Positions 32,877 to 62,238 of a stretch of 64,000 bases of DNA are shown here, one piece after another (the stretch's first letter is position 1; each line of letters begins with the position of its first letter). A program made the translations under genes and the position numbers. A model generated the notes under the pieces. The model saw only the letters and a list, made by a program, of their open reading frames with translations. It searched no databases and was not told the DNA's origin. The DNA comes from Paludibacter jiangxiensis (lineage in GTDB: Bacteria > Bacteroidota > Bacteroidia > Bacteroidales > Paludibacteraceae). The stretch is from contig NZ_BDCR01000004.1 in assembly GCF_001618385.1 (NCBI RefSeq), forward strand, positions 992,001 through 1,056,000. Reading direction: 5' to 3'.

Positions 32877-33030
32877 TTTCGAAGAACCAAGAGCCAAGAG
32901 ACAAGACCAATGAACCTGGAGTGTTTATTGCATCCTAATATTTTCAGACCGTCCTTATTTCTTGTAACTCACTCAAATTAAATTCTTGATTCTTGACTCT
33001 TGGTTCTTGATTCTTGGCTCTTGACTCTAA
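32877..33030 (+). repeat. CAAGARC word repeats in the AraC leader
   Basis: Words of the type CAAGAGC/CAAGAAC run from 32882 to 32911. Their reverse-complement form (TTCTTGATTCTTGACTCTTG and continuation) runs from 32980 to 33028. The two arms can pair across about 70 nt of unrelated sequence, so the leader could fold into a large imperfect hairpin just before the start codon. Confidence 0.65.
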
Positions 33031-49174: not shown

Positions 49175-50356
49175 ATGATTAAGCACAACTTTTATCTCAT
49201 TCTGTGCATAGCCGGAATGTTTATGGCAGGATGCACAACTAAAACAGACGTTGCATTCATCGATCAGACGGATGCGTCTTCCATCACTGCGCTCGATGTA
49301 GCCAATAAGTACATCGTGGTATTCAAAGAGAAGGTCAACCTGCAAGCTGCAGATTTTCCCACTCGTAATGCCAGTGTAAAAGCAAAAGCCTACGGACTCC
49401 TCAAGAAATACGGAATTTCAGGCGACATTGAAGAAGTGTACGAATCCTCCATCAACGGATTCGCCGTAAAAATGGCTCCCGGACAGGCAAAGAAAATGGA
49501 AATCGACTCACTCGTAAAATGGGTGGAAGCAGATAAAATCATTGCACTTTCACCCATAGAAATGCAAGGAAAACCTGGCGGAGGAGGCACAAACCAACCG
49601 CCACAACAAACGCCATGGGGAATTACACGCGTTGGTGGAGGAATCAATGCCACAATTTCAGGGACTGCCTGGATAATTGACACAGGCATTGATTTCACCC
49701 ATCCCGATCTGAACGTCGATCAAACCAGATCTCGCGCATTTCTGAGCAAATCGGCCTCCGCTGCCGACGAAAACGGTCACGGAACTCATGTTTCGGGTAT
49801 TGTGGCAGCAAAAAACAACACCATCGGAGTGGTTGGAGTAGCTCCCGGAGCCACACTGGTATCTGTCAGAGTACTGAACAAAAGCGGTAGCGGAACAACT
49901 TCCGGTGTAATTGCAGGAGTAAACTATGTTGGTGCAAATGGCAAAGGCGGCGATGTGGCCAATATGAGTCTGGGAGGAGGGGTATCAACCTCATTAGACG
50001 CAGCTGTAATAGGAGCTTCTTCCGCAGTGAAATTTGTTCTTGCAGCTGGTAATGAGTCGGACGATGCCATCAATCACTCGCCGGCACGGGTCGAAGGTTC
50101 AAACATCTATACCATTTCAGCCATGGATAAAACCGATACCTGGCCCTATTTTTCCAACTATGGATCGGTGGTAGATTTTTGTGCTCCAGGCGTTGCTATT
50201 TATTCCACTTATAAAGGAAGTTCTTATGCAACACTTTCAGGTACTTCAATGGCAACTCCGCATGTCACCGGTCTTCTGTTATTGGGAGAAATTAAAACTG
50301 ATGGTACAGTCATCGGTGATCCGGACGGACATCCGGATCCGATAGCTCATCATTAA
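49175..50356 (+). CDS. Subtilase (S8) lipoprotein protease
   Basis: 393 aa with lipoprotein signal (IAGMFMAGC, Cys20). An inhibitor-I9-type propeptide (NKYIVVFKEKVNLQ through VKWVEADKIIALS) precedes the protease domain. The catalytic triad is Asp169 in WIIDTGIDFTHPDL, His202 in NGHGTHVSGIVAA and Ser358 in SGTSMATPHVTG, with the oxyanion Asn in LAAGNES. It should be a cell-envelope protease with broad specificity. It has its own terminator. Confidence 0.93.
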   Translation: MIKHNFYLILCIAGMFMAGCTTKTDVAFIDQTDASSITALDVANKYIVVFKEKVNLQAADFPTRNASVKAKAYGLLKKYGISGDIEEVYESSINGFAVKMAPGQAKKMEIDSLVKWVEADKIIALSPIEMQGKPGGGGTNQPPQQTPWGITRVGGGINATISGTAWIIDTGIDFTHPDLNVDQTRSRAFLSKSASAADENGHGTHVSGIVAAKNNTIGVVGVAPGATLVSVRVLNKSGSGTTSGVIAGVNYVGANGKGGDVANMSLGGGVSTSLDAAVIGASSAVKFVLAAGNESDDAINHSPARVEGSNIYTISAMDKTDTWPYFSNYGSVVDFCAPGVAIYSTYKGSSYATLSGTSMATPHVTGLLLLGEIKTDGTVIGDPDGHPDPIAHH

Positions 50357-50385
50357 ATAGACAAGTCCCGGAAAATTGAAGTGAA

Positions 50386-50417
50386 CCCCAAAGTTTGGAC
50401 AAAAAACTTTGGGGTTT
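50386..50417 (+). terminator. Terminator after the subtilase gene
   Basis: CCCCAAAGTTT (50386-50396) pairs with AAACTTTGGGG (50404-50414), followed by TTTATTT. The remainder of the gap to 50578 is AT-rich with the promoter below. Confidence 0.75.
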
Positions 50418-50522
50418 ATTTATGAATAAAAAACAATCCTTATCTGGCTTAGCGACACTTGAAAATCAAGCACCTTTCTTTAGCTAAGCTTATAAATGCG
50501 TACTCCCTGTAAAAACATGTAG

Positions 50523-50530
50523 TATATTTG
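50523..50530 (+). promoter_or_regulatory. -7 box upstream of the GyrI-like gene
   Basis: TATATTTG, 48 bp before the chosen ATG at 50579. No clear TTG at -33. A box here argues against translation from the upstream frame beginning at 50528. Confidence 0.5.
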
Positions 50531-50578
50531 CAGGCCCTTTTTCAACAAATCAACGTTCAAAACCCGAAACATCATCTG

Positions 50579-51073
50579 ATGACAACTTATAAAATAGACC
50601 CCGTCATTAAAACAATTCCAGAAAAGAAGCTGATCGGCATACATAGATCAATGACACTGAGCAACGATACAACATTTGAATTATGGCGATCATTAATGCC
50701 CCGAAGAAAAGAAATTTCAAATGCTCTGAATCCGGATCTGATTTCGATGCAGCTATTCGGCAAGCCTCTGATTGACGGATCATTTACACAGGAGACTCCG
50801 TTTGAAAAATGGGCTGCGATTGAAGTTACCGATTTTGAAAATATTCCGGTTGGCATGGATTCCTATATCGTACCTCCCGGCCTCTACGCCTGCTTTGCAT
50901 ATAAAGGAGCTGCCAATGAAGCACAACCTACAATACAATATATTTACCAAGAATGGCTTCCCGCGTCAGGATATAAACCGGACAACCGCCCCCACATCAC
51001 CGTCATGGGAGACAAATACAAAGGGAATGACCCCGATTCGGAAGAAGAATTCAGAATACCCATTGTGCTGTAA
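50579..51073 (+). CDS. GyrI-like/effector-binding domain protein
   Basis: 164 aa starting MTTYKIDPVIKTIPEKKLIGIH. The repeated beta-alpha-beta-beta layout (KKLIGIHRSMTL, LWRSLMPRR, KWAAIEVTDFENIPVGMDSYIVPPGLYACFAYKG, YIYQEWLPASGYKPDNRPHITV) is that of SOUL/GyrI-like small-molecule-binding domains, here without a DNA-binding partner. Stand-alone members bind hydrophobic compounds or gyrase inhibitors. It converges with tdh and shares a terminator. Confidence 0.85.
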   Translation: MTTYKIDPVIKTIPEKKLIGIHRSMTLSNDTTFELWRSLMPRRKEISNALNPDLISMQLFGKPLIDGSFTQETPFEKWAAIEVTDFENIPVGMDSYIVPPGLYACFAYKGAANEAQPTIQYIYQEWLPASGYKPDNRPHITVMGDKYKGNDPDSEEEFRIPIVL

Positions 51074-51076
51074 AAA

Positions 51077-51106
51077 AAACGGGAGAATGTTATCACTCTC
51101 CCGTTT
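51077..51106. terminator. Bidirectional terminator between convergent genes
   Basis: AAACGGGAGA and TCTCCCGTTT form a 10-bp stem with A and T flanks, serving the GyrI-like gene and tdh. Confidence 0.8.
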
Positions 51107-51119
51107 CTGTTCATATCAC

Positions 51120-52145
51120 TTATTCCCAGTTTAGGATCACTTTTCCGCACTCGCCTTTTTCCATCACATCAAAACCTTTCTGGAAATCATTGACTGAAAA
51201 ACGGTGGGTAATAATCGGAGTCAGGTCGATGCCGGTAATCAGCATCTGCTCCATCTGGTACCAGGTTTCCCACATCTCGCGCCCATAAATACCTTTCAAT
51301 GTCAACGCTTTGAAGATAATCTTATTCCAGTCGGCTGCGGTGGAATTAGGCAGAATTCCGAGCAACGCAATCTTCGAACCGTTATACATATTATTGACCA
51401 TACTCTTGAAAGCTGCCGGTGATCCTGACATCTCCAGTCCGATATCGAACCCGTGCATCTTCAGGTCTTTCACAGCCTGCTCAATGGTTTCTCCCTGAGA
51501 GAGATTGACAGTCAGCGTGGCACCCATTTTCTTCGCAATCTTAAGGCGGTATTCACTCAAATCACTCACCACGATATTGCGGGCGCCGGCAAAACGGCAA
51601 ATAGCTGTAGCCATCGAACCGATCAGCCCTGCGCCGGTAATCAGTACGTCTTCTCCCAACAAGGGGAACGACAGGGCCGTATGTGTGGCGTTACCGAACG
51701 GATCCATGATGGCTGCCATATCGTCGGTAATACGGTGATCGAGTTTTACCACATTTTGAGCCGGAAGCGAAAGATATTCAGCAAAAGCGCCGTCGCGATT
51801 TACTCCCACTCCAATGGTATTTTCGCACACATGCAGTTTGCCCCGGCGGCAGTTACGGCAATGTCCGCAGGCAATATGTCCTTCGCCGGTCACCCGGTCG
51901 CCGATCTGGATATTACGCACCCCGCGCCCCTTATCGACCACCTCGCCCACATATTCGTGTCCAATGGTCATCGGGGTTTTGATGGTTTGCTGCGACCATT
52001 CGTCCCATTTGTAGATATGCAGATCAGTTCCGCATATAGCCGTTTTCTTTATTTTTATCAGCACGTCGTTAATACCCACGTGCGGCATGGGAATATCTTC
52101 CATCCAGATTCCCTTTTCGGGATGAAGTTTTACTAAAGCCTTCAT
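51120..52145 (-). CDS. tdh: L-threonine 3-dehydrogenase
   Basis: 341 aa. Zinc-type dehydrogenase with [18 protein letters not shown] and [12 protein letters not shown], structural-zinc cysteines [15 protein letters not shown], the NAD site [10 protein letters not shown] and the Tdh-specific [18 protein letters not shown]. It oxidises L-threonine to 2-amino-3-ketobutyrate, which Kbl, encoded upstream, cleaves to glycine and acetyl-CoA. A word-repeat element runs up to its start codon. Confidence 0.95.
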
Positions 52146-52146
52146 G

Positions 52147-52300
52147 TATTTACGATTTAGTCATTTACGATTTACAATTGGAATCTGAAATTTCAAGATC
52201 TCTGATTTCAAATTCAGCCTCTCTGAGTTTCTGTTCAAGATTGCAGATTCCATTTTCAAATTTCCACATTCTCAAATTTTCAAATTAAATTCTCAAATTA
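52147..52300 (-). repeat. Word-repeat intergenic element between kbl and tdh
   Basis: Minus-strand reading: AATTTGAGAATTT-type words, GGAATCTGCAATCTTGAAC, a spacer, then a 34-nt tail at 52180-52147 (CAATTGTAAATCGTAAATG and on). The tail matches 54792-54825 at 32 of 34 bases. It ends one base before the tdh ATG and overlaps the last codons of kbl. Confidence 0.75.
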
Positions 52301-53477
52301 CCTTCAGTTCTTTTCCTATCTTGGTGAACGCAGCGATTGCTTTGTCTAAGTGTTCGGTTTTGTGCGCAGCCGACACCTGTACGCGGATGCGAGCCTGACC
52401 CTGAGGCACAACAGGATAATAGAATCCGGTTACATAAATGCCTTCCTCAAGCATTTTGGCTGCAAACTCCTGCGACAAGCGGGCATCGTACAACATCACC
52501 GCACAAATGGCCGATTCGGTCGGCTTGATATCGAAGCCGGCAGCTTTCATGCGCGACACGAAATAGTCGGTATTGGCATGCAACTTATCCTGCAATTCGT
52601 TGGTTTCGTCCATTATCTCAAACATTTTGATGCCTGCCGCAGCTACTGAAGGCGGCAGCGAATTGGAGAAGAGATACGGCCGCGAGCGTTGACGCAACAG
52701 ATCGATAATCTCTTTTTTGCCGGTTGTAAAGCCACCGATAGCACCACCGAAAGCTTTTCCGAGCGTACCGGTAATGATTTCCACCTTACCGCGCAGATCA
52801 AACCGTTCAGTTACTCCTCTGCCTGTTTTACCGACCACGCCAGCAGAGTGCGACTCGTCCACCATCACCATGGCATCGTACCTGTTTGCCAGTTCGTAGA
52901 TTTTATCCAACGGAGCCACGTTGCCATCCATAGAGAAAACGCCGTCGGTAACCACCAAACGAAAACGACACGATTGCGCTGCCTGTAACTGTTTTTCAAG
53001 ATCGGCCATATCGGCATTTGCATAACGGAAACGCTGCGCTTTACACAAACGTACTCCGTCGATAATGGAAGCATGATTCAGAGAATCGGAGATGATTGCA
53101 TCTTCTTCGCCCAGCAGAGGTTCAAACACGCCGCCGTTGGCATCGAAGCAGGCTGCATACAAAATAGTATCTTCCGTACCGAAGAACTGAGCAATCTTCG
53201 CTTCGAGGGCTTTATGAGTATCCTGCGTGCCGCAAATAAAACGAACAGAGGCCATTCCGTAACCTCTGGCATCAAAAGCCTGCTTTGCCGCCTCAATCAA
53301 TTGCGGATTGTTAGCCAACCCTAAGTAATTGTTAGCACAAAAGTTGAGCACTTTATGCCCATTCACCTCTATTTCAGCTCCCTGAGCCGATTTAATAATT
53401 CTTTCATTTTTATACAACCCGGCCGATTGTATGGCAGAAAGTTCGCTCTGAAGATGTTGTTGAAATTTAGAATACAT
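52293..53477 (-). CDS. kbl: 2-amino-3-ketobutyrate CoA ligase (glycine C-acetyltransferase)
   Basis: 394 aa. Alpha-oxoamine synthase family, PLP type: FCANNYLGLANNPQLIEAAK, RFICGTQDTHKALEAKIAQFF, VDESHSAGVVGKTGRGV and the PLP-lysine in TGTLGKAFGGAIGG. Converts 2-amino-3-ketobutyrate and CoA to glycine and acetyl-CoA in the cytoplasm. It is the first gene of the kbl-tdh operon. Confidence 0.96.
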   Translation of the reverse strand: MYSKFQQHLQSELSAIQSAGLYKNERIIKSAQGAEIEVNGHKVLNFCANNYLGLANNPQLIEAAKQAFDARGYGMASVRFICGTQDTHKALEAKIAQFFGTEDTILYAACFDANGGVFEPLLGEEDAIISDSLNHASIIDGVRLCKAQRFRYANADMADLEKQLQAAQSCRFRLVVTDGVFSMDGNVAPLDKIYELANRYDAMVMVDESHSAGVVGKTGRGVTERFDLRGKVEIITGTLGKAFGGAIGGFTTGKKEIIDLLRQRSRPYLFSNSLPPSVAAAGIKMFEIMDETNELQDKLHANTDYFVSRMKAAGFDIKPTESAICAVMLYDARLSQEFAAKMLEEGIYVTGFYYPVVPQGQARIRVQVSAAHKTEHLDKAIAAFTKIGKELKVI

Positions 53478-53524
53478 TATATTTCAATATTTTATAGTTT
53501 GAGATCAAGATCCGTTGACTTGGA

Positions 53525-53532
53525 CAAATTTA
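53525..53532 (-). promoter_or_regulatory. -7 box of the kbl-tdh promoter
   Basis: TAAATTTG on the minus strand, 48 bp before the kbl start. A -33 TTG lies 25 bp further, longer than usual. Confidence 0.4.
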
Positions 53533-53678
53533 CAATTTAATATATATGGTTGTTCTGCAATTGCTCACTTTTTAAGACAAATCTTGCATTTTTCATTCCT
53601 CTAAAAGGATAATAAGGTTCGATTATTTGCTCAATTATAAAATAAAAACAGGCACAGGAAAAATATTTATCGTTTTTC

Positions 53679-53709
53679 TTGGTGGATTTATAATAAATTC
53701 CTACTTTTG
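53679..53709 (+). promoter_or_regulatory. Promoter of the phe/tyr operon
   Basis: TTG at 53679-53681, a 20-bp spacer and TACTTTTG at 53702-53709. Transcription should start near 53716, 20 nt before the leader peptide ATG. The promoter, leader and attenuator fill the 53478-53886 gap. Confidence 0.8.
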
Positions 53710-53735
53710 CACCCGAAAACATAACGATTTTGTTG

Positions 53736-53822
53736 ATGACACAATATTTCTCATATTACTTTTTTTACTTTTACTTTTTTAGCCAAAGTAAGAGCGGGAG
53801 TTTGTGTCTTAACCATAAGTAA
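53736..53822 (+). CDS. Phe/Tyr-rich leader peptide of the phe/tyr operon
   Basis: A 28-codon frame, ATG at 53736 and TAA at 53820. Residues 4-15 read YFSYYFFYFYFF: 6 Phe and 5 Tyr in 12 codons. It is too short to be noticed by most gene finders. It lies between a good promoter and a rho-independent terminator, directly upstream of pheA. Scarcity of charged tRNA-Phe or tRNA-Tyr would stall the ribosome on this run. The 3' part of the frame (GAGCGGGA at 53792-53799) can pair with the terminator's 5' arm. I infer classical translation-coupled attenuation. Confidence 0.85.
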   Translation: MTQYFSYYFFYFYFFSQSKSGSLCLNHK

Positions 53823-53832
53823 TCAATTTTAA

Positions 53833-53872
53833 GGTTGTTCAAAAATCCCGCTCACACAGCGGGATTTTTTTT
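53833..53872 (+). terminator. Attenuator terminator upstream of pheA
   Basis: AAAAATCCCGCT (53841-53852), loop CACAC, AGCGGGATTTTT (53858-53869), followed by more T. The competing antiterminator pairs 53792-53814 (GAGCGGGA, TTTG, AACC) with 53833-53853 (GGTT, CAAAA, TCCCGCTC). The two structures are mutually exclusive. Confidence 0.88.
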
Positions 53873-53886
53873 TAATTATAACTCAT

Positions 53887-54729
53887 ATGGTAAAAGTAGC
53901 TATTCAAGGGATTGCAGGTTCGTTTCACGACATTGCCGCACAATGTTATTTCGGTAAAGAAAACATCGAGTTGGTACCCTGCACCACATTCAAGGATCTG
54001 TTTGCCTGTCTGACAGAAAACGCATCCATGGTGGGCATCGTGGCAATTGAGAATACTATTGCAGGCAGCTTGCTTCCAAACTACAATTTACTGAGAGAAA
54101 GCAGACTGACCATTATCGGCGAACACAAGCTTCGCATCCGCCACAATCTGGTGGCTATGCCGGGACAAACCATCGACGACATCAAAGAGGTTCATTCTCA
54201 CTACATGGCATTGTTGCAATGCGAAGAGTTTCTGGCAGCTCATCCACATATCAAGCACGTGGAAGCCGAAGATACTGCTGCCGAAGGGCTCCGCATATCG
54301 GAGGAAAAGGCAATGGGACAAGCCGCTATCTGTAGCAAATATGCCGCCGAACTGTTCGGACTGGAGATTCTGGCAAAAGGGATTGAGACCAACAAGCATA
54401 ATTTCACCCGTTTTCTGATTATCGGCAACGAAATTATGCGCGACAAACTGGCCGGAGACCGTGAAAAGAACAAAGCATCGCTCGTTTTTTCATTGCCTCA
54501 CGAAGAGGGCAGCCTCTCCAAAATTCTCACCATCCTCTCTTTTTACAACATCAACCTTACCAAAATACAGTCATTACCGGTTGTCGGTCACGAATGGGAA
54601 TACCTCTTTTATATCGATGTCAAGTTCAACGACTTCGTCCGATACCGCCAATCGCTTGATGCCATTATTCCACTGACCAAGAAACTGAGGATTTTGGGCG
54701 AATACGCCGAAGGAGAACAGACAATCTAA
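53887..54729 (+). CDS. pheA: Prephenate dehydratase
   Basis: 280 aa, a stand-alone PDT-ACT protein without a chorismate mutase domain. The catalytic domain has AIQGIAGSFHDIAAQ, IVAIENTIAGSLLPNYNLL and the characteristic Thr-Arg-Phe in NKHNFTRFLIIG. The ACT domain follows (SLVFSLPHEEGSLSKILTIL, FYNINLTKIQSLPV), normally binding phenylalanine for feedback inhibition. It makes phenylpyruvate from prephenate. It is the first gene after the Phe/Tyr attenuator. Confidence 0.95.
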   Translation: MVKVAIQGIAGSFHDIAAQCYFGKENIELVPCTTFKDLFACLTENASMVGIVAIENTIAGSLLPNYNLLRESRLTIIGEHKLRIRHNLVAMPGQTIDDIKEVHSHYMALLQCEEFLAAHPHIKHVEAEDTAAEGLRISEEKAMGQAAICSKYAAELFGLEILAKGIETNKHNFTRFLIIGNEIMRDKLAGDREKNKASLVFSLPHEEGSLSKILTILSFYNINLTKIQSLPVVGHEWEYLFYIDVKFNDFVRYRQSLDAIIPLTKKLRILGEYAEGEQTI

Positions 54730-54730
54730 T

Positions 54731-54825
54731 TTAGGAATTTGGAGATTTGAAAATTTGGAAATGTAGTCTGAAATCTTGAAACTCCCGATTTCAATTGTAA
54801 ATCGTAAATGAATAAATTGTAAATA
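54731..54825 (+). repeat. Word-repeat intergenic element between pheA and the aminotransferase
   Basis: GGAATTTGGAGATTTGAAAA-type words (54733-54762), TCTGAAATCTTGAAACTCC, then a 34-nt tail (54792-54825) that matches the kbl-tdh element at 32 of 34 bases. It stops 8 nt before the aminotransferase ATG. Confidence 0.75.
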
Positions 54826-54833
54826 AACAACAT

Positions 54834-56012
54834 ATGTCACTAAATATCAAGCCGGCCAACCGGTTAAACACCGTCAGCGAATACTATTTCTCGAAAAAGC
54901 TTCGCGAAATAGACGAAATGAACAAAGCAGGCAAGAACGTTATCAGTCTGGGAATTGGAAAACCCGACCTGCCTCCTTCCGAAAACACCATCAAGGCGTT
55001 GAATGAAGAGTCGCTCAAACCGGATGTTCATGGTTATCAGAGCTACATCGGTATTCCCGAGCTGCGCAAAGGCTTCGCCGACTGGTATCAAAAATGGTTC
55101 GGTGTGGAGTTGAATCCGGCAAACGAAATCCAACCGCTCTTCGGATCGAAGGAGGGCATTCTGCATATTTCGCTGGCATTTCTCAATCCGGGCGACGGCG
55201 TACTGGTTCCCAATCCGGGCTATCCGACCTACATGTCGGTAAGCCGCTTAGCCGAAGCCAACGTCATCAGTTACTATCTGGACGAAAACAACGGCTGGCA
55301 ACCCGATTTTGAAGCGCTCGAAAAACTCGATCTGAGCAATGTAAAACTGATGTGGGTGAACTATCCCAACATGCCGACCGGTGCACCGGCCACCAAAGAG
55401 CTGTTCGACAAGCTGGTAGCCTTCGGCAAAAAGCACAGCATCGTTATTTGCAACGACAATCCCTACAGCTTCATCCTCAACGAAAACCGTCTAAGCCTGT
55501 TGGCTGCCGAAGGGGCAAAAGATATTTGCATCGAACTCAATTCCATGAGCAAATCGCACAACATGTCGGGCTGGCGTATGGGCCTGGTGGCCTCCAATCC
55601 TCAGTTTATCGAATGGATTCTGCGCGTGAAGAGCAATATCGACTCCGGCATGTTCCGCCCCATGATGGTGGCCGCTGCCGAAGCATTGAAAAATACGGAA
55701 GAGTGGCACCGCGAAAAAAATATTGAGGTTTACCAAAAACGCCGGGTTATTGCAGAGAAGATAATGCAACAAATGGGTTGTACCTTTGACCCCAAACAGG
55801 TGGGCATGTTCCTTTGGGGTAAAATCCCTGACCAATACAAAGATGCAGGCGAACTGGCCGACAAAGTACTGTACAATGCGCATGTATTTGTGACACCCGG
55901 ATTTATCTTCGGCGATAAGGGCAATCGCTATGTGCGATTGTCACTCTGTGCCACCGAAAAAATGCTGGAAGAATCGCTGGAACGCATCTGCAAAGTACTC
56001 AGTACACAGTAA
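54834..56012 (+). CDS. Class I/II aminotransferase (aromatic/LL-DAP type)
   Basis: 392 aa. Fold-type I PLP enzyme with ISLGIGKPDLPPSE, PLFGSKEGILHISLAFLNPGD, MWVNYPNMPTGAPAT, and the PLP-lysine Lys240 in NSMSKSHNMSGWRMG. In a pheA-aroF-tyrA operon it should transaminate phenylpyruvate and 4-hydroxyphenylpyruvate. Its last seven codons (ending VLSTQ) and stop lie inside the left arm of the inverted repeat that brackets the next gene, so the insertion has probably set its C-terminus. Confidence 0.9.
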   Translation: MSLNIKPANRLNTVSEYYFSKKLREIDEMNKAGKNVISLGIGKPDLPPSENTIKALNEESLKPDVHGYQSYIGIPELRKGFADWYQKWFGVELNPANEIQPLFGSKEGILHISLAFLNPGDGVLVPNPGYPTYMSVSRLAEANVISYYLDENNGWQPDFEALEKLDLSNVKLMWVNYPNMPTGAPATKELFDKLVAFGKKHSIVICNDNPYSFILNENRLSLLAAEGAKDICIELNSMSKSHNMSGWRMGLVASNPQFIEWILRVKSNIDSGMFRPMMVAAAEALKNTEEWHREKNIEVYQKRRVIAEKIMQQMGCTFDPKQVGMFLWGKIPDQYKDAGELADKVLYNAHVFVTPGFIFGDKGNRYVRLSLCATEKMLEESLERICKVLSTQ

Positions 56013-56024
56013 ACAGTACGCAGT
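55993..56024 (+). repeat. Left arm of the inverted repeat around the four-helix-bundle gene
   Basis: A 32-nt arm made of CAGTAC-type words (AAGTACTCAGTAC...CAGTACGCAGT). It matches the reverse complement of 56439-56470 at 28 of 32 positions and overlaps the aminotransferase stop codon. Confidence 0.85.
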
Positions 56025-56047
56025 GCCGACATCATAACACTCAACTT

Positions 56048-56413
56048 ATGTTTAAAAATCTAACATCGTTGAAAGCCTATCAAATGGCATATCGTTTAGC
56101 CTTAGATATTTATGAACGAAGCAAACAATTTCCAAAAGAGGAACAATATTCTCTTACCGATCAGATTCGAAGGAGTTCCCGCTCTGTTTGCACAAACATT
56201 GGCGAAGCGTATCGCAAACGACTATACGAAAAGCATTTTATATCAAAACTTTCGGATGCGGACGGCGAATGTACGGAAACGTTGATATGGCTTAATTTTG
56301 CAAAAGATTTTCAATACATTACGGAAGAAGAATTCAAAGAATACATTGAGCAATACGAACAAGTAGGCAATTTAATTGGCTACATGATGTCTCATCCCGA
56401 AAAATTCAGATAA
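56048..56413 (+). CDS. Four-helix-bundle (S23/IVS-type) protein
   Basis: 121 aa. SLKAYQMAYRLALDIYERSKQFPKEE, YSLTDQIRRSSRSVCTNIGEAYRKR, FISKLSDADGECTETLIWLNFA and a last helix are the standard helices of the family first seen in 23S rRNA intervening sequences and structurally related to the Avd accessory protein of diversity-generating retroelements. Biochemical function is unknown; nucleic-acid binding is likely. Here it is not in rRNA and has no reverse transcriptase beside it. It interrupts an amino-acid operon and is bracketed by a 32-nt inverted repeat. Confidence 0.9.
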   Translation: MFKNLTSLKAYQMAYRLALDIYERSKQFPKEEQYSLTDQIRRSSRSVCTNIGEAYRKRLYEKHFISKLSDADGECTETLIWLNFAKDFQYITEEEFKEYIEQYEQVGNLIGYMMSHPEKFR

Positions 56414-56438
56414 CAAAAAACACTATAGAAGCAGATTT

Positions 56439-56470
56439 ACTGAGTACTGCTGACTGCGTACTGAGTACTT
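56439..56470 (+). repeat. Right arm of the inverted repeat around the four-helix-bundle gene
   Basis: Reverse complement of the left arm with 4 mismatches. It begins 25 bp after the four-helix-bundle stop and ends 36 bp before the DAHP synthase start. Confidence 0.85.
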
Positions 56471-56506
56471 CCTAAAATAACGAATCATAATAATAAATTG
56501 AACGAT

Positions 56507-57571
56507 ATGGATTTACAACCAATTTTCGAACCGATTACCGAAGAGAACCGTCCTTTGGTGATTGCCGGCCCCTGTAGCGCCGAAACAGAAGAACAAACCG
56601 TGGAAACGGCTAAACAACTTGCCTCAAAAGGCATTAAAATATTTCGTGCCGGCATTTGGAAACCCCGTACTAAACCGGGTGGATTTGAAGGCATTGGCAG
56701 CGAGGGGCTTTCCTGGCTGCAAACCGTAAAACAGGAAACCGGCATGTTGACCGCCACCGAAGTAGCCACCGCCAAACATGTGGAAGAAGCGCTCAAAGCC
56801 GGAGTGGACTTGTTGTGGGTAGGAGCCCGCACTACCACCAATCCGTTTGCCGTACAGGAAGTTGCCGACACATTGAAAGGAGTGGACGTCCCTGTATTAG
56901 TTAAAAATCCGGTCAACCCTGATATTGAGTTATGGATCGGGGGATTAGAACGTATCTACAACGCAGGTATCCGCCGCCTGGGGGCTATCCACCGCGGATT
57001 CAGCACCTACGACAAAACCATCTACCGCAATACACCCCAATGGCACATCCCCATCGAGTTGCGCCGTCGTCTGCCCGAGGTGCCCATCATTTGCGACCCG
57101 AGCCATATTGGTGGCCGTCGCGAACTGATCGCTTCCATCTCGCAACAGGCGCTCGACCTCAACTTCGAGGGCTTGATCATCGAATCACATTGTACGCCCG
57201 ACGACGCATGGAGCGATAAAAACCAGCAAATCACACCCGACGTACTGGCCGAAATCCTCACACACTTAGTAGTTCGCAAAACCAACCAGACCACCGAAGA
57301 CTTGTCTATTCTCCGCCGTCAGATCGACGATTTGGACAACAAGTTGCTGGAAGTGTTGGCAAAACGTTTCCGTGTGTCGCGCGAAATCGGAACTTACAAG
57401 AAAGAGCACAACATGGCTGTTCTACAGACAGTTCGTTACGACGAAATTCTGAAAGACCGTATCGCTCAGGCCGAAAGCATGGATATTAATGGCGAATTTA
57501 TGAAAACCGTACTCGAAGCCATCCACGAAGAGTCAGTACGGGTACAGCTCGAACTGATCAATAAAAAATAA
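56507..57571 (+). CDS. Bifunctional DAHP synthase / chorismate mutase
   Basis: 354 aa from the ATG at 56507. The N-terminal 255 residues are a type I-beta (KDSA-like) DAHP synthase: VIAGPCSAETEEQTVETAK, IFRAGIWKPRTKPGGFEGIG, LVKNPVNPD, ICDPSHIGGRRELI. From about 265 an AroQ-type chorismate mutase follows (LSILRRQIDDLDNKLLEVLAKR through ESVRVQLEL). It catalyses the first committed step of aromatic synthesis and the branch to prephenate, used by pheA and tyrA in the same operon. Confidence 0.95.
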   Translation: MDLQPIFEPITEENRPLVIAGPCSAETEEQTVETAKQLASKGIKIFRAGIWKPRTKPGGFEGIGSEGLSWLQTVKQETGMLTATEVATAKHVEEALKAGVDLLWVGARTTTNPFAVQEVADTLKGVDVPVLVKNPVNPDIELWIGGLERIYNAGIRRLGAIHRGFSTYDKTIYRNTPQWHIPIELRRRLPEVPIICDPSHIGGRRELIASISQQALDLNFEGLIIESHCTPDDAWSDKNQQITPDVLAEILTHLVVRKTNQTTEDLSILRRQIDDLDNKLLEVLAKRFRVSREIGTYKKEHNMAVLQTVRYDEILKDRIAQAESMDINGEFMKTVLEAIHEESVRVQLELINKK

Positions 57572-57582
57572 AAATCATAGTT

Positions 57583-57659
57583 GTAAGTGGTAAGTGATAA
57601 GGTATAAGTCGGTCTACAAACCGATTTACTTATCACTTACAACTTATCACTTATCACTA
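57583..57659 (+). repeat. GTGATAAG word-repeat inverted element between DAHP synthase and tyrA
   Basis: GTAAGTGGTAAGTGATAAGG, then AAGTCGGT-ctacaa-ACCGATTT, then CTTATCACTTACAACTTATC and another copy, up to 5 nt before the tyrA ATG. The two sides are imperfect reverse complements, so the whole gap can fold into one large hairpin. Confidence 0.75.
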
Positions 57660-57664
57660 CTATC

Positions 57665-58438
57665 ATGCGCATTTTGATTCTCGGAGCCGGAAAGATGGGC
57701 TCCTTCTTTACTGACGTACTGAGTTTTCAGCACGAAGTGGCGGTATACGATGCCGACCCTAAGCGCCTGCGTTTTGTCTACAACACCATCCGCATGTCGC
57801 AATTGGAGGAAATCAAAGAGTTTGATCCCGAACTGGTTATCAATGCGGTGACCATCAAACACACGCTGGAGGCATTTAAAAACGTCATGCCTTTTCTTTC
57901 TAAGAATTGTATACTGTCCGATATTGCTTCGGTAAAAACCGGACTGCCCGAATTTTACCAGAACTGCGGTTTCCGTTTCGTGTCGTCGCACCCCATGTTC
58001 GGCCCCACCTTTGCAAGCCTGAGCGACCTCTCCACGCAGAGCGCCATCATCATTGCCGAGTCCGACCACCTGGGCAAGGTATTCTTCAAAGACCTCTACA
58101 GTTCATTGAAACTGAACATTTTTGAATACACCTTCCGCGAACACGACGAAACAACGGCCTACTCGCTCTCCATTCCGTTTGCTTCCACACTGGTATTCGC
58201 CTCGGTGATGAAGCACCAGGAAGCGCCGGGCACCACCTTCAAGCGCCATCTGGCCATTGCCCACGGACTGCTGTCGGAAGACGATTACCTGCTGCAGGAG
58301 ATACTCTTCAACCCCTACACGCCGGAACAGTTGACCAACATCCGCGAAGAGCTCGGTAATCTGCTCGACATTATCGAACACAAGGACGCCGACCGCATGA
58401 AGGCCTACCTAAAAAAAGTACGGGAAAATATTCAGTAA
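57665..58438 (+). CDS. tyrA: Prephenate dehydrogenase
   Basis: 257 aa, the short form. Rossmann motif LILGAGKMGSFF, NAVTIKHTLEAFKNVMPFL, the catalytic-region SHPMFGPTFASLSDLS and a helical C-terminal dimerisation domain (HLAIAHGLLSEDDYLLQEIL). It oxidises prephenate to 4-hydroxyphenylpyruvate. It is the last gene of the phe/tyr operon. Confidence 0.92.
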   Translation: MRILILGAGKMGSFFTDVLSFQHEVAVYDADPKRLRFVYNTIRMSQLEEIKEFDPELVINAVTIKHTLEAFKNVMPFLSKNCILSDIASVKTGLPEFYQNCGFRFVSSHPMFGPTFASLSDLSTQSAIIIAESDHLGKVFFKDLYSSLKLNIFEYTFREHDETTAYSLSIPFASTLVFASVMKHQEAPGTTFKRHLAIAHGLLSEDDYLLQEILFNPYTPEQLTNIREELGNLLDIIEHKDADRMKAYLKKVRENIQ

Positions 58439-58462
58439 GCGTTACGCAACCAACCGTACACC

Positions 58463-58490
58463 GTAGAGACGTTGCATGCAACGTCTCTAC
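58463..58490. repeat. Perfect 28-bp palindrome
   Basis: GTAGAGACGTTGCA followed by its exact reverse complement, 25 bp after tyrA. Palindromes of this GTAGAGACG...CGTCTCTAC type recur between genes in many bacteria. It may also end the operon, although there is no T run. The rest of 58439-58748 holds the promoter and hairpin listed next and no credible gene. Confidence 0.75.
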
Positions 58491-58593
58491 ACAATCCCCA
58501 ATCAGCGAATCATGAAAATGGTTCGCTTTTTTGTTTTTATTCGTTTCGTGCTGCCCTACCTGTTAATTCAACTATTTTTACATAAAGATTTCC

Positions 58594-58689
58594 TACATTT
58601 GTACTATGAATATATAGCAATTGATGCACGTATTGCATATATCCACTATAAGAGATATGTGCAACAAATAACGAGTAAGTTGCACATAT
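58594..58689 (+). promoter_or_regulatory. Promoter box and leader hairpin of the TIR gene
   Basis: TACATTTG at 58594-58601 matches TAnnTTTG. The predicted leader contains an 11-bp hairpin: ATATGTGCAAC (58655-58665), 13-nt loop, GTTGCACATAT (58679-58689), ending 60 nt before the ATG. There is no T run, so it is more likely an operator or mRNA element than a terminator. Confidence 0.5.
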
Positions 58690-58748
58690 ATTTTGTTAGC
58701 AACAAGCGTAAGAAACCGCAGAATAGACATGATAAGATTTAATATATA

Positions 58749-59735
58749 ATGAGACAAACCAAATTTGATATAGCCCTTTCATTTGCAGGAGAACAAAGAG
58801 AATATGTAGACCAAGTTGCTAATATTTTAAATCAAAAAGGAATATCAACTTTCTATGACAAATTTGAAGAAGCAAATCTATGGGGTAAAAATTTATATGA
58901 TTATCTTTCTGATGTTTACATGAATCAAGCGAGATATACAATAATGTTTATCTCCAAAGATTATAGTAAAAAATTATGGCCAAATCATGAAAGGCAATCT
59001 ATGCAAGCAAGAGCTTTTCAAGAAAGCTCAGAATATGTACTTCCTGCAAAATTTGATGATACAGAAATACCTGGAGTTTTACCAACAACTGGATATATAA
59101 GTCTTCAAAATAAAACTCCTGAAGAATTTGTCTACATTATTGAGAAAAAACTCATATTCAGCGGAGGAACTATACCGAGCGAGAATATACGTAGTGCCTT
59201 GTCTACAATCATTACAATTCCCAAAACAGAACCGAAGAACATAAGATTAACTGTAATGTCTGATAATAATCCAGTAGAGAGCGCCCAAGTATGTTTAATT
59301 GCAGATAATGGAACAACTTTAAACGCGACTACTGATAAAGAAGGGAATGCTAACTTTCATGTTGTAACAAGGAGATTATATTCTGTTCTAGTGGCACATC
59401 CTAAATATTCGTCCGCAATATTAGAGCAATTTGATACAACTGAAGATTTGAAAATAACATTAAAGTCTGTTGAAAATATTGGTTCAATTATTTGTAGTAG
59501 CACATGCTATATTAACGGTTTACAAGGTAGATTAAACCCAATTCTTGATTCGCCTAGAAGATATTTTTATGCTGATAATATAGCAATTGAAGGAGGAAAG
59601 GAGCAACCTGTAATGTTTGAACTTAATAAACCAGTACAAGTTGAGGACTGTAACGGTGTAATTATGAATCTAATTTTCAGATTTATGCGAGCAAGAATGT
59701 CTCTGATTGATTATGTAAAACCAATATTTGAATAA
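58749..59735 (+). CDS. TIR-domain protein with transthyretin-like and novel C-terminal domains
   Basis: 328 aa, strongly AT-rich relative to its neighbours. Residues 1-135 are a TIR domain (FDIALSFAGEQREYVDQVAN, FYDKFEEANLWGKNLYDYL, YTIMFISKDYSKKLWPNHE). Glu81 is placed as the catalytic Glu of TIR NADases. Residues 160-235 look like a carboxypeptidase-regulatory/transthyretin-type beta-sandwich (PVESAQVCLIADNGTTLNA, TDKEGNANFHV). The last 80 residues match nothing I know. It has no partner gene, so if it is an NAD-consuming defence effector the C-terminal parts would have to sense the trigger. It lies next to a REP transposase. Confidence 0.85.
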   Translation: MRQTKFDIALSFAGEQREYVDQVANILNQKGISTFYDKFEEANLWGKNLYDYLSDVYMNQARYTIMFISKDYSKKLWPNHERQSMQARAFQESSEYVLPAKFDDTEIPGVLPTTGYISLQNKTPEEFVYIIEKKLIFSGGTIPSENIRSALSTIITIPKTEPKNIRLTVMSDNNPVESAQVCLIADNGTTLNATTDKEGNANFHVVTRRLYSVLVAHPKYSSAILEQFDTTEDLKITLKSVENIGSIICSSTCYINGLQGRLNPILDSPRRYFYADNIAIEGGKEQPVMFELNKPVQVEDCNGVIMNLIFRFMRARMSLIDYVKPIFE

Positions 59736-59957
59736 TAAACGCCAGTTGCCAACACATACTCATAAACAATTGGAGTTTAAGTGGTTTGGCGCGCGTCGCT
59801 CTCGTTTGCATGCTTTCTGCTCGGTTGATAGGAAAGCGTCCACGAAGTCCCCAACTGCTTATAGCTTCATCCGTTAAACCGTATTCCCTGACAGCTCAGA
59901 TTTTTGCTGGCGCGCTTTTCTAGAGCGTGCCCATTTCATGAAACTAAGTACGGAATA
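59736..59957. other. Gene-free stretch
   Basis: About 220 bp between the TIR stop and the left REP cluster. No coding frame with plausible composition, promoter box or strong hairpin was found. Base composition is more GC-rich than the TIR gene. Confidence 0.5.
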
Positions 59958-60213
59958 AAGTCCTGCCTTACAGGCAGAAGTCGTGCTTCAGCCTTTTACC
60001 GTAGGTCTACGACCCACGGTTATGAAAATCTAGTCTTTCAGACTTTGGAATAACGTTCGTCAGCAACACAAACACAGAAGCGAATGACTTGAAAATCAAA
60101 CATTATCTATCATCAGCAGCAGACACAAATGACTTGAAAAGTCGAATTTCCATAACCGTAGGTCGAAGACCTGCGGAAGAACAGAATACCAAACTGATTT
60201 GCCTGAAAGGCAA
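59958..60213. repeat. Left palindrome cluster flanking the REP transposase
   Basis: Six hairpins in order: CTGCCT-tac-AGGCAG (59963-59977); 59999-60019 with core GGTC-tac-GACC; AGTCT-ttc-AGACT (60032-60044); GACTT-gaa-AAGTC (60131-60143); 60156-60176 with core AGGTC-gaa-GACCT; TTGCCT-gaa-AGGCAA (60199-60213). The first three have loops TAC or TTC and the last three GAA, so the halves are inverted relative to each other. The same series recurs at 60683. Confidence 0.85.
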
Positions 60214-60230
60214 GACAAATATTTAACCCC

Positions 60231-60680
60231 ATGAGTTACACACGTTTATTATACCACATCGTATTTCGGACAAAAGATAGTAAAAACACCATCCCGGAAA
60301 CCCATGAGAAGGAGTTATACGCCTATCTTATGGGCATTATCAACAACAAAAAATCGACGCTGTATCGTATTGGAGGCACAGCCAACCACATCCATCTACT
60401 GATAGACCTGCATCCCACCATTGCACTATCCGATTTTATGAAAGAATTGAAAGAGTACTCCAGTAAATGGATGGCTAAGAACCCGAACTTTCCTCACTTT
60501 GAAGGCTGGGCGGTTAGCTTTGCCGGCTTTACATACAATCTGAAGGAGAAGGAAACTATCATAAACTATATCAAAAACCAGAAAGAACACCACAAATCGG
60601 TTTCATTCGAAGAAGAATTTCGCAGTTTTTTGATAGAAAACGGTGTGGAGATCGATGAGCGTTACTTTCTGAAAGAGTGA
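60231..60680 (+). CDS. REP-associated / IS200-like Y1 transposase
   Basis: 149 aa. HUH endonuclease motif HIHLLIDL (His-x-His), the preceding YRIGGTANH, and a C-terminal helix with the nucleophilic Tyr in YNLKEKETIINYIKNQKEHH. Length and motif spacing match TnpA of IS200 and REP-associated transposases (RAYTs), which act on single-stranded hairpins. The gene is complete and lies between two clusters of hairpins that are presumably its substrates. Confidence 0.92.
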   Translation: MSYTRLLYHIVFRTKDSKNTIPETHEKELYAYLMGIINNKKSTLYRIGGTANHIHLLIDLHPTIALSDFMKELKEYSSKWMAKNPNFPHFEGWAVSFAGFTYNLKEKETIINYIKNQKEHHKSVSFEEEFRSFLIENGVEIDERYFLKE

Positions 60681-60682
60681 TG

Positions 60683-60975
60683 CAGTCCTGCCTTACAGGC
60701 AGAAATTGAGGGTTGCCTTCTACCGCAGGTCTGCGACCCGCGGTTATGAAAATCCGGTCTTTCAGACCATAGACAAACACCCTGCAGCAACATACAGACG
60801 GTAACGACTTGAAAAGTCGAAACTCGTATCACCCCATAGGAATAACATTCGCCAGCGCTACAAACGCAGAAGCAAATGACTTGAAAAGTCGAATCTTCAT
60901 AACCGTAGGTCGAAGACCTGCGGATGTACATATTCTCAGGTTCATTTGCCTGAAAGGCAAGACTAAAAGATGATG
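60683..60975. repeat. Right palindrome cluster flanking the REP transposase
   Basis: Same order as the left cluster: CTGCCT-tac-AGGCAG (60688-60702), 60723-60743, GGTCT-ttc-AGACC (60756-60768), GACTT-gaa-AAGTC (60806-60818 and again 60878-60890), 60903-60923, TTGCCT-gaa-AGGCAA (60956-60970). It has one more GACTT unit than the left. The stems carry compensated changes: AGTCT/AGACT on the left is GGTCT/AGACC here. It fills the gap to the GH10 gene. Confidence 0.85.
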
Positions 60976-61077
60976 CAGCAATGCGAGTCGGAACTCCGTT
61001 TGGCAATAGTCGCATAAGTTCGTATTTTTGCAGGGAGACACTTTCATTTCCAACCATCCGAAAATCCACTCCCATTC

Positions 61078-62238
61078 ATGAAAAAGACGCTACTGTACAT
61101 CGCCTGCGCACTATTGCTGGCCAATACCATCACCGCTCAAACCGGCACCAAAACTACTCCGACATTGAAAGATGCCTACAAAGGCGCTTTTAAAATCGGC
61201 TGCTCCGTCAACGATGCGATCGTCAGGGGTTCTGACTCTATCTCACGGCGGTTGGTACTTCAGCAGTTCAACGCCATTACCCCCGAAAACGTACTGAAAG
61301 CCGAGACCGTGCACCCAACTCCGGATGTCTGGAATTTTGCACCGGGCGATGCCTTCGTCAAGATGGGAGAAGTCAATCACCTGTTTGTTGTGGGGCACAC
61401 GTTGATTTGGCACAACCAAACGCCCGACTGGTTTTTCAAGGATGCAGCAGGACACCCGAGGTCGCACGACGTCATGGTGGAACAGATGCGCAGCTACATT
61501 GCCACGGTAGTAGGAAGATATAAAAACCGCATCAACGCGTGGGACGTGGTCAACGAGCAGATAGACGAAAACGGAGCTTACCGTTCCACTGCCTGGGTAA
61601 ACGCCATCGGTAACGGAGACGAGCTGATGAAACTGGCCTTTAAATTTGCCCACCAATACGCGCCGGATGCCGAGCTCTATTACAACGACTTCAACGTGTG
61701 GCGCCCGTCAAAGCGCGACGGCATTGCCCGCATGGTGCGTATGCTCAAAAAAGAGGGAATCCGCATCGACGGCATCGGTATACAGGGCCACTGGGGACTT
61801 AATTTCCCCAAAAAAGAATACATCGAAGCGGCCATCGATACCTTTGCCACGCTGGGCGTGAAGGTGATGATAACCGAACTGGATGTGGATGTATTGCCCA
61901 TCACCAAAGAGGGACAGTTGATCGGCAAAATAATGAATGACCCACAATGGCAACACGAAGAGTTCAAAGCATTCCTTGATCCGTATCGCAACGGCCTCCC
62001 CGCCGATGTGGAGAAGCAACTGGCCGACCGCTATGCCGAACTGTTCGGCATCTTCTACAACAAACGCGACAAGATAGACCGCGTTACCGTGTGGGGATTG
62101 CACGACGGCATGTCGTGGAAAAACGACTACCCGGTTCCAGGCCGCATCAATTATCCTCTGCTCTATAGGCGCGACAAGACTCCTAAACCGGCTTTGGAAG
62201 CTGTATTGGCCGTACCGGAAAAGGCAAAAAAGCAATAA
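61078..62238 (+). CDS. GH10 endo-beta-1,4-xylanase, secreted
   Basis: 386 aa with signal peptide (MKKTLLYIACALLLANTITA). GH10 barrel: FNAITPENVLKAE, VVGHTLIWHNQTPDWFF, acid/base Glu160 in NAWDVVNEQID, GIGIQGHWGL, nucleophile Glu267 in VMITELDVDVLP, and TVWGLHDGMSWKNDYP. It cleaves xylan backbones in the periplasm or outside the cell. It stands alone between a REP cluster and the trp operon, away from other xylan genes. Confidence 0.95.
   Translation: MKKTLLYIACALLLANTITAQTGTKTTPTLKDAYKGAFKIGCSVNDAIVRGSDSISRRLVLQQFNAITPENVLKAETVHPTPDVWNFAPGDAFVKMGEVNHLFVVGHTLIWHNQTPDWFFKDAAGHPRSHDVMVEQMRSYIATVVGRYKNRINAWDVVNEQIDENGAYRSTAWVNAIGNGDELMKLAFKFAHQYAPDAELYYNDFNVWRPSKRDGIARMVRMLKKEGIRIDGIGIQGHWGLNFPKKEYIEAAIDTFATLGVKVMITELDVDVLPITKEGQLIGKIMNDPQWQHEEFKAFLDPYRNGLPADVEKQLADRYAELFGIFYNKRDKIDRVTVWGLHDGMSWKNDYPVPGRINYPLLYRRDKTPKPALEAVLAVPEKAKKQ

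Follow-up and report, generated by a model that had tools for sequence, protein, structure and literature searches.

We analysed a 64,000-nucleotide stretch of DNA from Paludibacter jiangxiensis (contig NZ_BDCR01000004.1, positions 992,001 to 1,056,000 of the forward strand), called the window below, in which a small four-helix-bundle gene of the S23 or 23S-rRNA-intervening type (IVP) lies within an aromatic amino-acid operon. The IVP gene occupies positions 56048..56413 of the window on the forward strand and encodes 121 aa. It is preceded by an aminotransferase gene (54834..56012, forward strand) and followed by the gene of a DAHP synthase (DAHPS; 56507..57571, forward strand), whose ATG start is at 56507, an earlier TTG being given in the list of open reading frames (ORFs). 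On either side of the IVP gene is an arm of 32 nt built from CAGTACN heptamers; the two arms are 414 nt apart, are reverse-complementary at 28 of 32 positions (88%) and delimit an element of 478 nt. The left arm (55993..56024, forward strand) is an array of the heptads AAGTACT, CAGTACA, CAGTAAA and CAGTACG followed by CAGT, has a period of 7 according to Tandem Repeats Finder (TRF), and holds the last codons and the stop codon of the aminotransferase gene. The right arm (56439..56470, forward strand) consists of inverted heptad words, the reverse complement of those on the left.

Profile searches placed the protein in the IVP family, with matches to PF05635 (E 3.5e-33; 114.4 bits against a curated cut-off of 33.8) and TIGR02436 (E 5.3e-31; 107.1 bits against a cut-off of 24), and it also matched bAvd, PF22296 (E 2.4e-10). 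The solved relatives 2rld and 2gsc were each deposited with five chains. IVP is the sole protein encoded between the arms, and no recognisable transposase is present inside. An earlier sequence-only reading of this DNA had described an S23/Avd-type gene enclosed by 32-nt arms of CAGTAC-like words, the left of which supplies the final codons and stop of the aminotransferase, and these features were confirmed by our analysis. When the flanks of all 846 ORFs on the 1.116-Mb contig were scored as inverted repeats (mean 10.6), the window IVP gene scored 24.0 and ranked fifth, behind two Y1_Tnp genes, one DUF559 gene and one 148-aa ORF without a Pfam match; a score of at least 16 was reached by 20 of the 846. 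Among the 191 contig ORFs of 80-200 aa, nine reached this score, and the top six were the same four ORFs, a GIY-YIG gene and the window IVP gene. The window's genome contains six IVP genes, five of which have inverted word arrays, with a different word each.

Inverted word arrays across the IVP family

For a family-wide survey, we collected 165 IVP genes in 155 loci, of which 161 had enough flank to be scored and four were dropped for short flanks. They came from relatives of the window's genome (IVP genes in 46 of 61 genomes) and from 80 loci of species-level genomes, the best 80 of at least 583, which represent many phyla by record title (titles of metagenome-assembled genomes may be misbinned). 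The left and right flanks of the same locus scored at least 16 as inverted repeats at 117 of the 161 IVP loci, compared with 3.8% of cross-locus pairings, and as direct repeats at 31 of 161; the lack of such an enrichment around other family members had been named by the sequence-only reading as a point on which it could fail. In the 80-locus set alone, two loci of which were dropped, p <=0.02 was obtained for the inverted orientation at 45 of 78 usable loci and for the direct orientation at 13. Chance or composition as the source of the arms was ruled out by the cross-locus, whole-contig and shuffle controls.

The words of the arms were studied in the 117 loci with a score of at least 16. The mean self-match of 221 arms was 0.58, 0.56 and 0.54 at lags of 7, 14 and 21, compared with 0.25-0.33 at other lags and about 0.31 after shuffling, and the best lag was 7 in 157 arms and 8 in 44. 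The arrays had a median length of 34 nt, with 4-5 copies of the word in 90 of 134 arrays. The 111 strongly 7-periodic arms carried 83 distinct consensus words, and the 5-prime arms had a loose common motif, nAGTnAn, with 2.08 bits, whereas 100 column permutations given the same number of restarts reached at most 1.60. In the 5-prime sense, AG exceeded CT in 99 of 117 loci, with the reverse in 12 and a tie in 6. Because the remaining 5-prime flank leaned the same way (81, 30 and 6 loci, respectively), part of this AG excess is background.

In the same 117 loci, the words were found to co-vary with the protein. Between genomes, words were shared by 20 of the 22 pairs with at least 70% protein identity, by 34% of the 47 pairs at 60-70% and by about 2% of pairs below 50%, and none of 500 permutations reached the observed correlation of words with protein identity, also when the window's genus was collapsed. 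Words were common to 7 of 9 pairs (at least 70% identity) and 10 of 34 pairs (60-70%) located in unrelated contexts; examples of such related gene-plus-word units are L275/L278 versus L260/L271, L243/L272 and L264/L253. At the conserved position of L011 and L010, the protein (65% identity) and the words of both arms had changed. By its substitution ratios, the IVP gene is under purifying selection, with dN/dS values of 0.04-0.14 in the 10 of 21 close IVP pairs for which dS is defined, pairs that are not all independent, and of 0.12 in a cyanobacterial pair; same-site IVP orthologues have been kept across species. Four residues (Q39, S46, E53 and E77) were invariant in 28 diverse IVP sequences, and P29, E32, R42, N50, R58 and G73 were also invariant in a closer set of 20. 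These residues are candidates for recognition or chemistry.

Occupied and empty sites

The presence of the gene at the same operon position in all close relatives had been named by the sequence-only reading as a point on which it could fail; close relatives were found without the gene there. The site is empty in the congeners G004, G005 and G007 (DAHPS 83-85% identical), which have a short plain gap. In G003 (DAHPS 94% identical), the gap between the aminotransferase and DAHPS genes holds a gene-less GATTAAT array and in G006 (93%) a CCCCTAACCCC hairpin, and the C-terminus of the aminotransferase differs in each congener compared. Inverted hairpins of the CCCCTAACCCCTCC or GGAGGGG type were observed in this gap of G006 and in both gaps of G038 (L038, L044). 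The same gap is used recurrently by different elements, as illustrated by the word hairpins in the window's genome and by those of L038 and L044.

Both neighbours were found for 150 IVP loci, and the IVP gene was co-directional with both at 132 of these, compared with 528 of 846 contig genes; on plasmids this was the case at 8 of 12 loci. Under the longest-frame ORF rule, no more than 25 nt separated the start of the left arm from the upstream stop in 79 of the 95 co-directional armed loci, and the arm contained that stop in 61. Stop triplets in all three frames were present in 69 of 117 left arms, against a shuffled mean of 40. By comparing loci, we could show that the usual place of the unit is the stop codon of an upstream gene that runs in the same direction.

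Among plasmid records, 30 contained the IVP family, and 28 of these were from cyanobacteria. Ten of the 12 plasmid loci examined reached an inverted score of 16, with G-rich words that are common to the plasmids and a cross-locus maximum of up to 34. IVP elements were located inside CRISPR-cas operons of cyanobacterial plasmids, twice between cas6 and cas4 and also between cas10 and cmr3 (L280, L284, L290), and the host contexts are very different, comprising cas operons, conjugation genes and an amino-acid operon. The clean case came from two plasmids that are 97.7% identical: relative to L291, L289 contains an insertion of 428 nt with an exact 5-bp duplication, GTAAT, at the upstream stop codon, and this insertion brings arms and gene together into a word-free gap. 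The same insertion is found in L294, with a left arm 14 nt (two words) shorter than that of L289. In the comparison of L299 with L283 and L304, a TTCTA duplication is probable by eye, and the exact-match routine does not return it (overlap -1 versus L283). On the chromosome, words are likewise absent from the empty L011 site in G000 and G001. By sequence comparison, arms and gene were shown to be one unit that is present or absent at single sites and is gained, lost and decaying. Carriage by phages was considered and rejected: one IVP protein had no match in a phage collection, and none of four viral-contig stretches that match a pattern encodes a relative.

Gene-less hairpins and the surroundings of the element

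Word arrays without the gene, which the sequence-only reading had reported from other gaps of the window, were confirmed; none is assigned to a strand. A hairpin of GTAAGTG-type heptamers occupies the DAHPS-tyrA gap (57567..57679) and is also present in the congener G006, G003 having a different hairpin. The arrays in the pheA-aminotransferase gap (54728..54824), with AATTTGGA-type octamers at 54728-54762, have their best match among the 117 IVP arm sets in L005 of the same genome, as do the arrays at 52148..52300, which have TCAAATTT-type octamers at their right end. A hairpin of AAGANYC heptamers (32882..33028) has the word type of the IVP genes L020 and L022, from congeners, and of L241. 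Over the 1.116 Mb of the contig there are ten inverted array pairs. Seven of them have no ORF between the arrays (loops of 24-83 nt), one encloses the IVP gene, and the other two enclose an ORF for a DUF4430 protein and an ORF that has no match. Nine gene-less arrays were compared with the 117 IVP arm sets in ten queries, two of which were the arms of the hairpin at 32882-33028. Four arrays best matched L005, three matched the group of L020, L022, L210 and L241, and two, of the GTAAGTG and ACAAAGAC types, had no good match among these arm sets.

At the L006 site, G003, whose flanks are 95.6-96.8% identical, keeps both arms, and a loop of about 55 nt replaces the gene between them; G006 has another word hairpin. 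Since the gene is present in the more distant G001, loss in G003 is the simplest reading at this site. The proposal that the gene-less loci are derivatives is supported, in that an orthologous site keeps the arms without the gene. In L293, a word array is retained together with a truncated IVP gene, and in L302 a gene-less element of 182 nt with the same words lies inside an IVP gene. From such comparisons, gene-less hairpins with the same words could be shown to exist at orthologous and at new sites. A hairpin, CCGCTAAATC...GATTTAGCGG, lies inside the insertion in L302 (L302:646-1310), and the L300 gap contains a comparable inner one; this may be a second small element within the first. In L308 (G000, C3, ~74881-74989), a gene-less array of CAGTATTCAGTACTCAGTA, the word of the window element, follows a stop codon; at the equivalent position G006 has an IVP gene with a different word.

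The statement of the sequence-only reading that neither a transposase nor a reverse transcriptase (RT) lies nearby stood for the RT, none of which was present among the listed ORFs of 50000-62000, and did not stand for the transposase. A Y1 (IS200-like) transposase gene with its own inverted repeats is located at 60231-60680, 3.8 kb from the element, and its score of 36.5 is the maximum of the 846 contig ORFs. Strongly repeated flanks were also observed on the same contig at the DUF559 gene (L100:13504-13893; inverted 27.0, direct 119.5) and the GIY-YIG gene (L071:1696-1980; inverted 20.5, direct 79.0), both of which are small stand-alone nuclease-type genes.

Interpretation, alternatives and wider meaning

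We consider it probable, at about 0.68, that the window feature is a single copy of a mobile element, about 0.4-0.5 kb long, that consists of a left 7-nt word array, an IVP gene and an inverted right array. Where the sequence-only reading had proposed a minimal mobile or diversifying element, a minimal mobile element with gene-less derivatives is supported by the empty sites, one exact 5-bp duplication and related units in unrelated contexts, and diversification is not. In the mechanism that we propose, IVP would bind its own words, each subunit of a pentamer reading about one heptad of the array (5 x 7 = 35 nt, compared with a median array length of 34 nt), would bring the two ends of the element together and would direct integration via a staggered DNA cut. 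Gene-less hairpins would be non-autonomous derivatives that are still able to insert. Cutting and joining might be performed by an unrecognised activity of IVP, by a host nuclease or by a Y1 transposase in trans, and the ends might be paired as folded single-stranded DNA, duplex DNA or RNA.

Several observations weigh against the mobile-element interpretation. First, 44 of the 161 IVP loci score below 16, and the detection threshold accounts in part for the fit of array length to a pentamer, since it helps to fix the lower bound. Second, eight comparisons of occupied and empty sites at the level of single bases gave one exact duplication, one that is probable by eye and six without a readable duplication (L282, L290, the second gap of L283, L288, L279 and the chromosomal L011 site). 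At the L011 site the exact overlap is only 1 nt at 8-9% divergence, and no clear duplication surrounds the gene-less insertion in L302. Third, conserved positions account for 13 of the 22 close pairs, and the other 9 all come from one protein cluster of six loci. Fourth, the catalytic enzyme was not identified. Finally, G-U pairs on the sense RNA are not favoured among the mismatches of the arms (192 GU, 289 AC). An RNA stem under selection was not supported, the asymmetry between G-U and A-C mismatches running the opposite way.

Some probability, if a small one, belongs to the view that the IVP gene is a domesticated operon gene, not primarily mobile, whose product regulates its own transcript via the heptad arms and for which the gene-less arrays are other targets. 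A precedent for repeat reading is TRAP, which reads repeated triplets. Purifying selection, the co-directionality of 132 of 150 loci with both neighbours, the co-variation of words with the protein and the retention of same-site orthologues across species all agree with regulation. However, presence and absence between 97.7%-identical plasmids with a 5-bp duplication, the occurrence of related units in unrelated contexts, the very different host genes and the lack of a G-U signal for a sense RNA stem do not.

The hairpins might instead be mobilised in trans by Y1 transposases of the IS200 or REP-associated tyrosine transposase (RAYT; REP, repetitive extragenic palindromic) type, such as the product of the gene at 60231, with IVP as a helper or passenger, which we consider unlikely. 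Among the 61 relatives, Y1_Tnp was matched in 41 of 46 IVP-bearing and in 5 of 15 IVP-less genomes (Fisher p 6e-5), a further point against mobilisation by IVP itself, and a Y1_Tnp gene with the highest inverted-flank score of the contig lies 3.8 kb away. Because of this association, the probability given above for the IVP-based element was set lower and that of mobilisation by Y1 higher. General mobile-element load could explain the association, however, and the words track IVP identity. Five IVP-bearing genomes (G011, G018, G019, G032 and G037) have no Y1_Tnp match, but the listed copies in G019 and G037 contain in-frame stops, and where a genome lacks Y1 its IVP gene may be immobile.

It is quite improbable that slippage in gaps creates the heptad arrays independently and that IVP genes home into existing hairpins of their own word. 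Although array lengths differ by two heptads between L289 and L294, and congeners have different hairpins in the same gap, the clean case (L289/L291) inserted arms and gene together into a word-free gap, and the empty L011 site in G000 and G001 lacks words too. A retroelement with an RT in trans, in which IVP acts like Avd in diversity-generating retroelements (DGRs), is very improbable: IVP resembles bAvd by profile, IVP loci are mostly sense within transcripts and the window's genome has one RVT_1 match on another contig (C3), but RVT_1 was not found in the IVP-rich genomes G001 (9 IVPs), G006 (12), G008 (9), G031 (11), G028 (8) and G036 (8), and RT and IVP presence are not associated (RT in 19 of the 46 IVP-bearing and 7 of the 15 IVP-less genomes; p 0.77). 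The diversifying, DGR-like part of the sequence-only proposal is not supported.

The element of our preferred interpretation, a mobile unit built on IVP, resembles several known systems and differs from each. The intervening sequence (IVS) of 23S rRNA has an S23-family ORF in the loop of complementary arms (about 28-32 nt) and a similar size, as does the window element, and its mobility has long been suspected. The Coxiella IVS is described as an element of 428-444 nt whose function and origin are unclear and which has a stem of 28 bp and contains an S23 ORF (PMC4990558). In contrast, the window element lies between protein genes (aminotransferase and DAHPS) and not inside 23S rRNA, and iterated 7-nt words that vary by lineage, gene-less derivatives and one 5-bp duplication were found here; five 23S words are contained in none of 307 loci. 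In REP/RAYT (REPIN) systems, a small gene is likewise accompanied by many gene-less intergenic hairpins, and Y1 presence goes with IVP presence; the differences are that the gene of the element is IVP and not Y1, that the ends are word arrays and that the five IVP genomes named above lack a Y1 match. With insertion sequence (IS) elements and miniature inverted-repeat transposable elements (MITEs), the element shares inverted ends, a target duplication in the clean case and gene-less derivatives, whereas no transposase is recognisable inside it and its ends vary by copy and co-vary with the protein. The DGR accessory protein Avd (bAvd) is related to IVP by profile, yet no RT stands beside the IVP gene (the single RVT_1 match of the genome being the one on C3), and the DivGenRetAVD equivalog cut-off was missed (42.9 bits versus 80).

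Heptameric intergenic repeats share tandem 7-nt words and intergenic location, some overlap gene ends, and they occur in Cyanobacteria and Bacteroidetes among others. TAACTGA arrays were reported without a mechanism, with the speculation that a repeat-binding protein could be the mobile element (PMC4679880), and GGGAATC and GGGGA(C/T)T repeats with no known role (PMC4692102); unlike the arrays studied here, they are tied to no gene family in the parts of these two articles that were available. When all heptamers were ranked against the IVP motif, TAACTGA fell in the top 2.0%, GTGATTA in the top 2.4% and GGGGACT in the top 6.1%, and GGGGATT (55.9%) and GGGAATC (89.8%) did not fit. The cyanobacterial short tandemly repeated repetitive (STRR) sequences are heptameric intergenic repeats as well, and three STRR heptamers ranked at 0.8-8.9%. 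Literature linking IVP genes to word repeats was not found among the open-licence PMC articles listed.

A similar arrangement was seen around PDDEXK_3 genes, also named GxxExxY, of which the window's genome has five. After 8 loci on truncated contigs and 2 weak matches were left out of the 33 loci (L126-L158), inverted flanks of at least 16 were present in 17 of 23 usable loci, compared with 7.3% of cross-locus pairings and with 12 of 23 in the direct orientation. Of 34 arms, 20 had their best lag at 9 or 10 and one at 7; the mean self-match at lags of 9 and 10 was only 0.35-0.36. Word length may follow the protein family, a result weaker than that for IVP. We give even odds to a general, word-ended class of mobile elements, in which a small gene lies between inverted short-word arrays, the protein family determines the word length (7 nt for IVP and, less regularly, about 9-10 nt for PDDEXK_3), the word sequence is private to each protein lineage, and protein and ends evolve together like a lock and its key. 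A large part of the heptameric intergenic repeats found in Cyanobacteria, Bacteroidota and other groups would then be gene-less IVP derivatives, and the IVS would be the special case of insertion into rRNA. The weak period at PDDEXK_3 loci is the reason why the odds were not set higher.

IVP ('four helix bundle') genes that stand by themselves are common and lack an explanation, and the heptameric repeats on record have no known origin. Both puzzles become one question, namely, whether IVP recognises a private 7-nt word and moves the DNA between two arrays. If this is true, IVP elements would represent a class of mobile element without a known transposase inside and would offer many natural protein and word pairs for studying the evolution of recognition, and their gene-less derivatives may explain the puzzling seven-letter repeats of bacteria.
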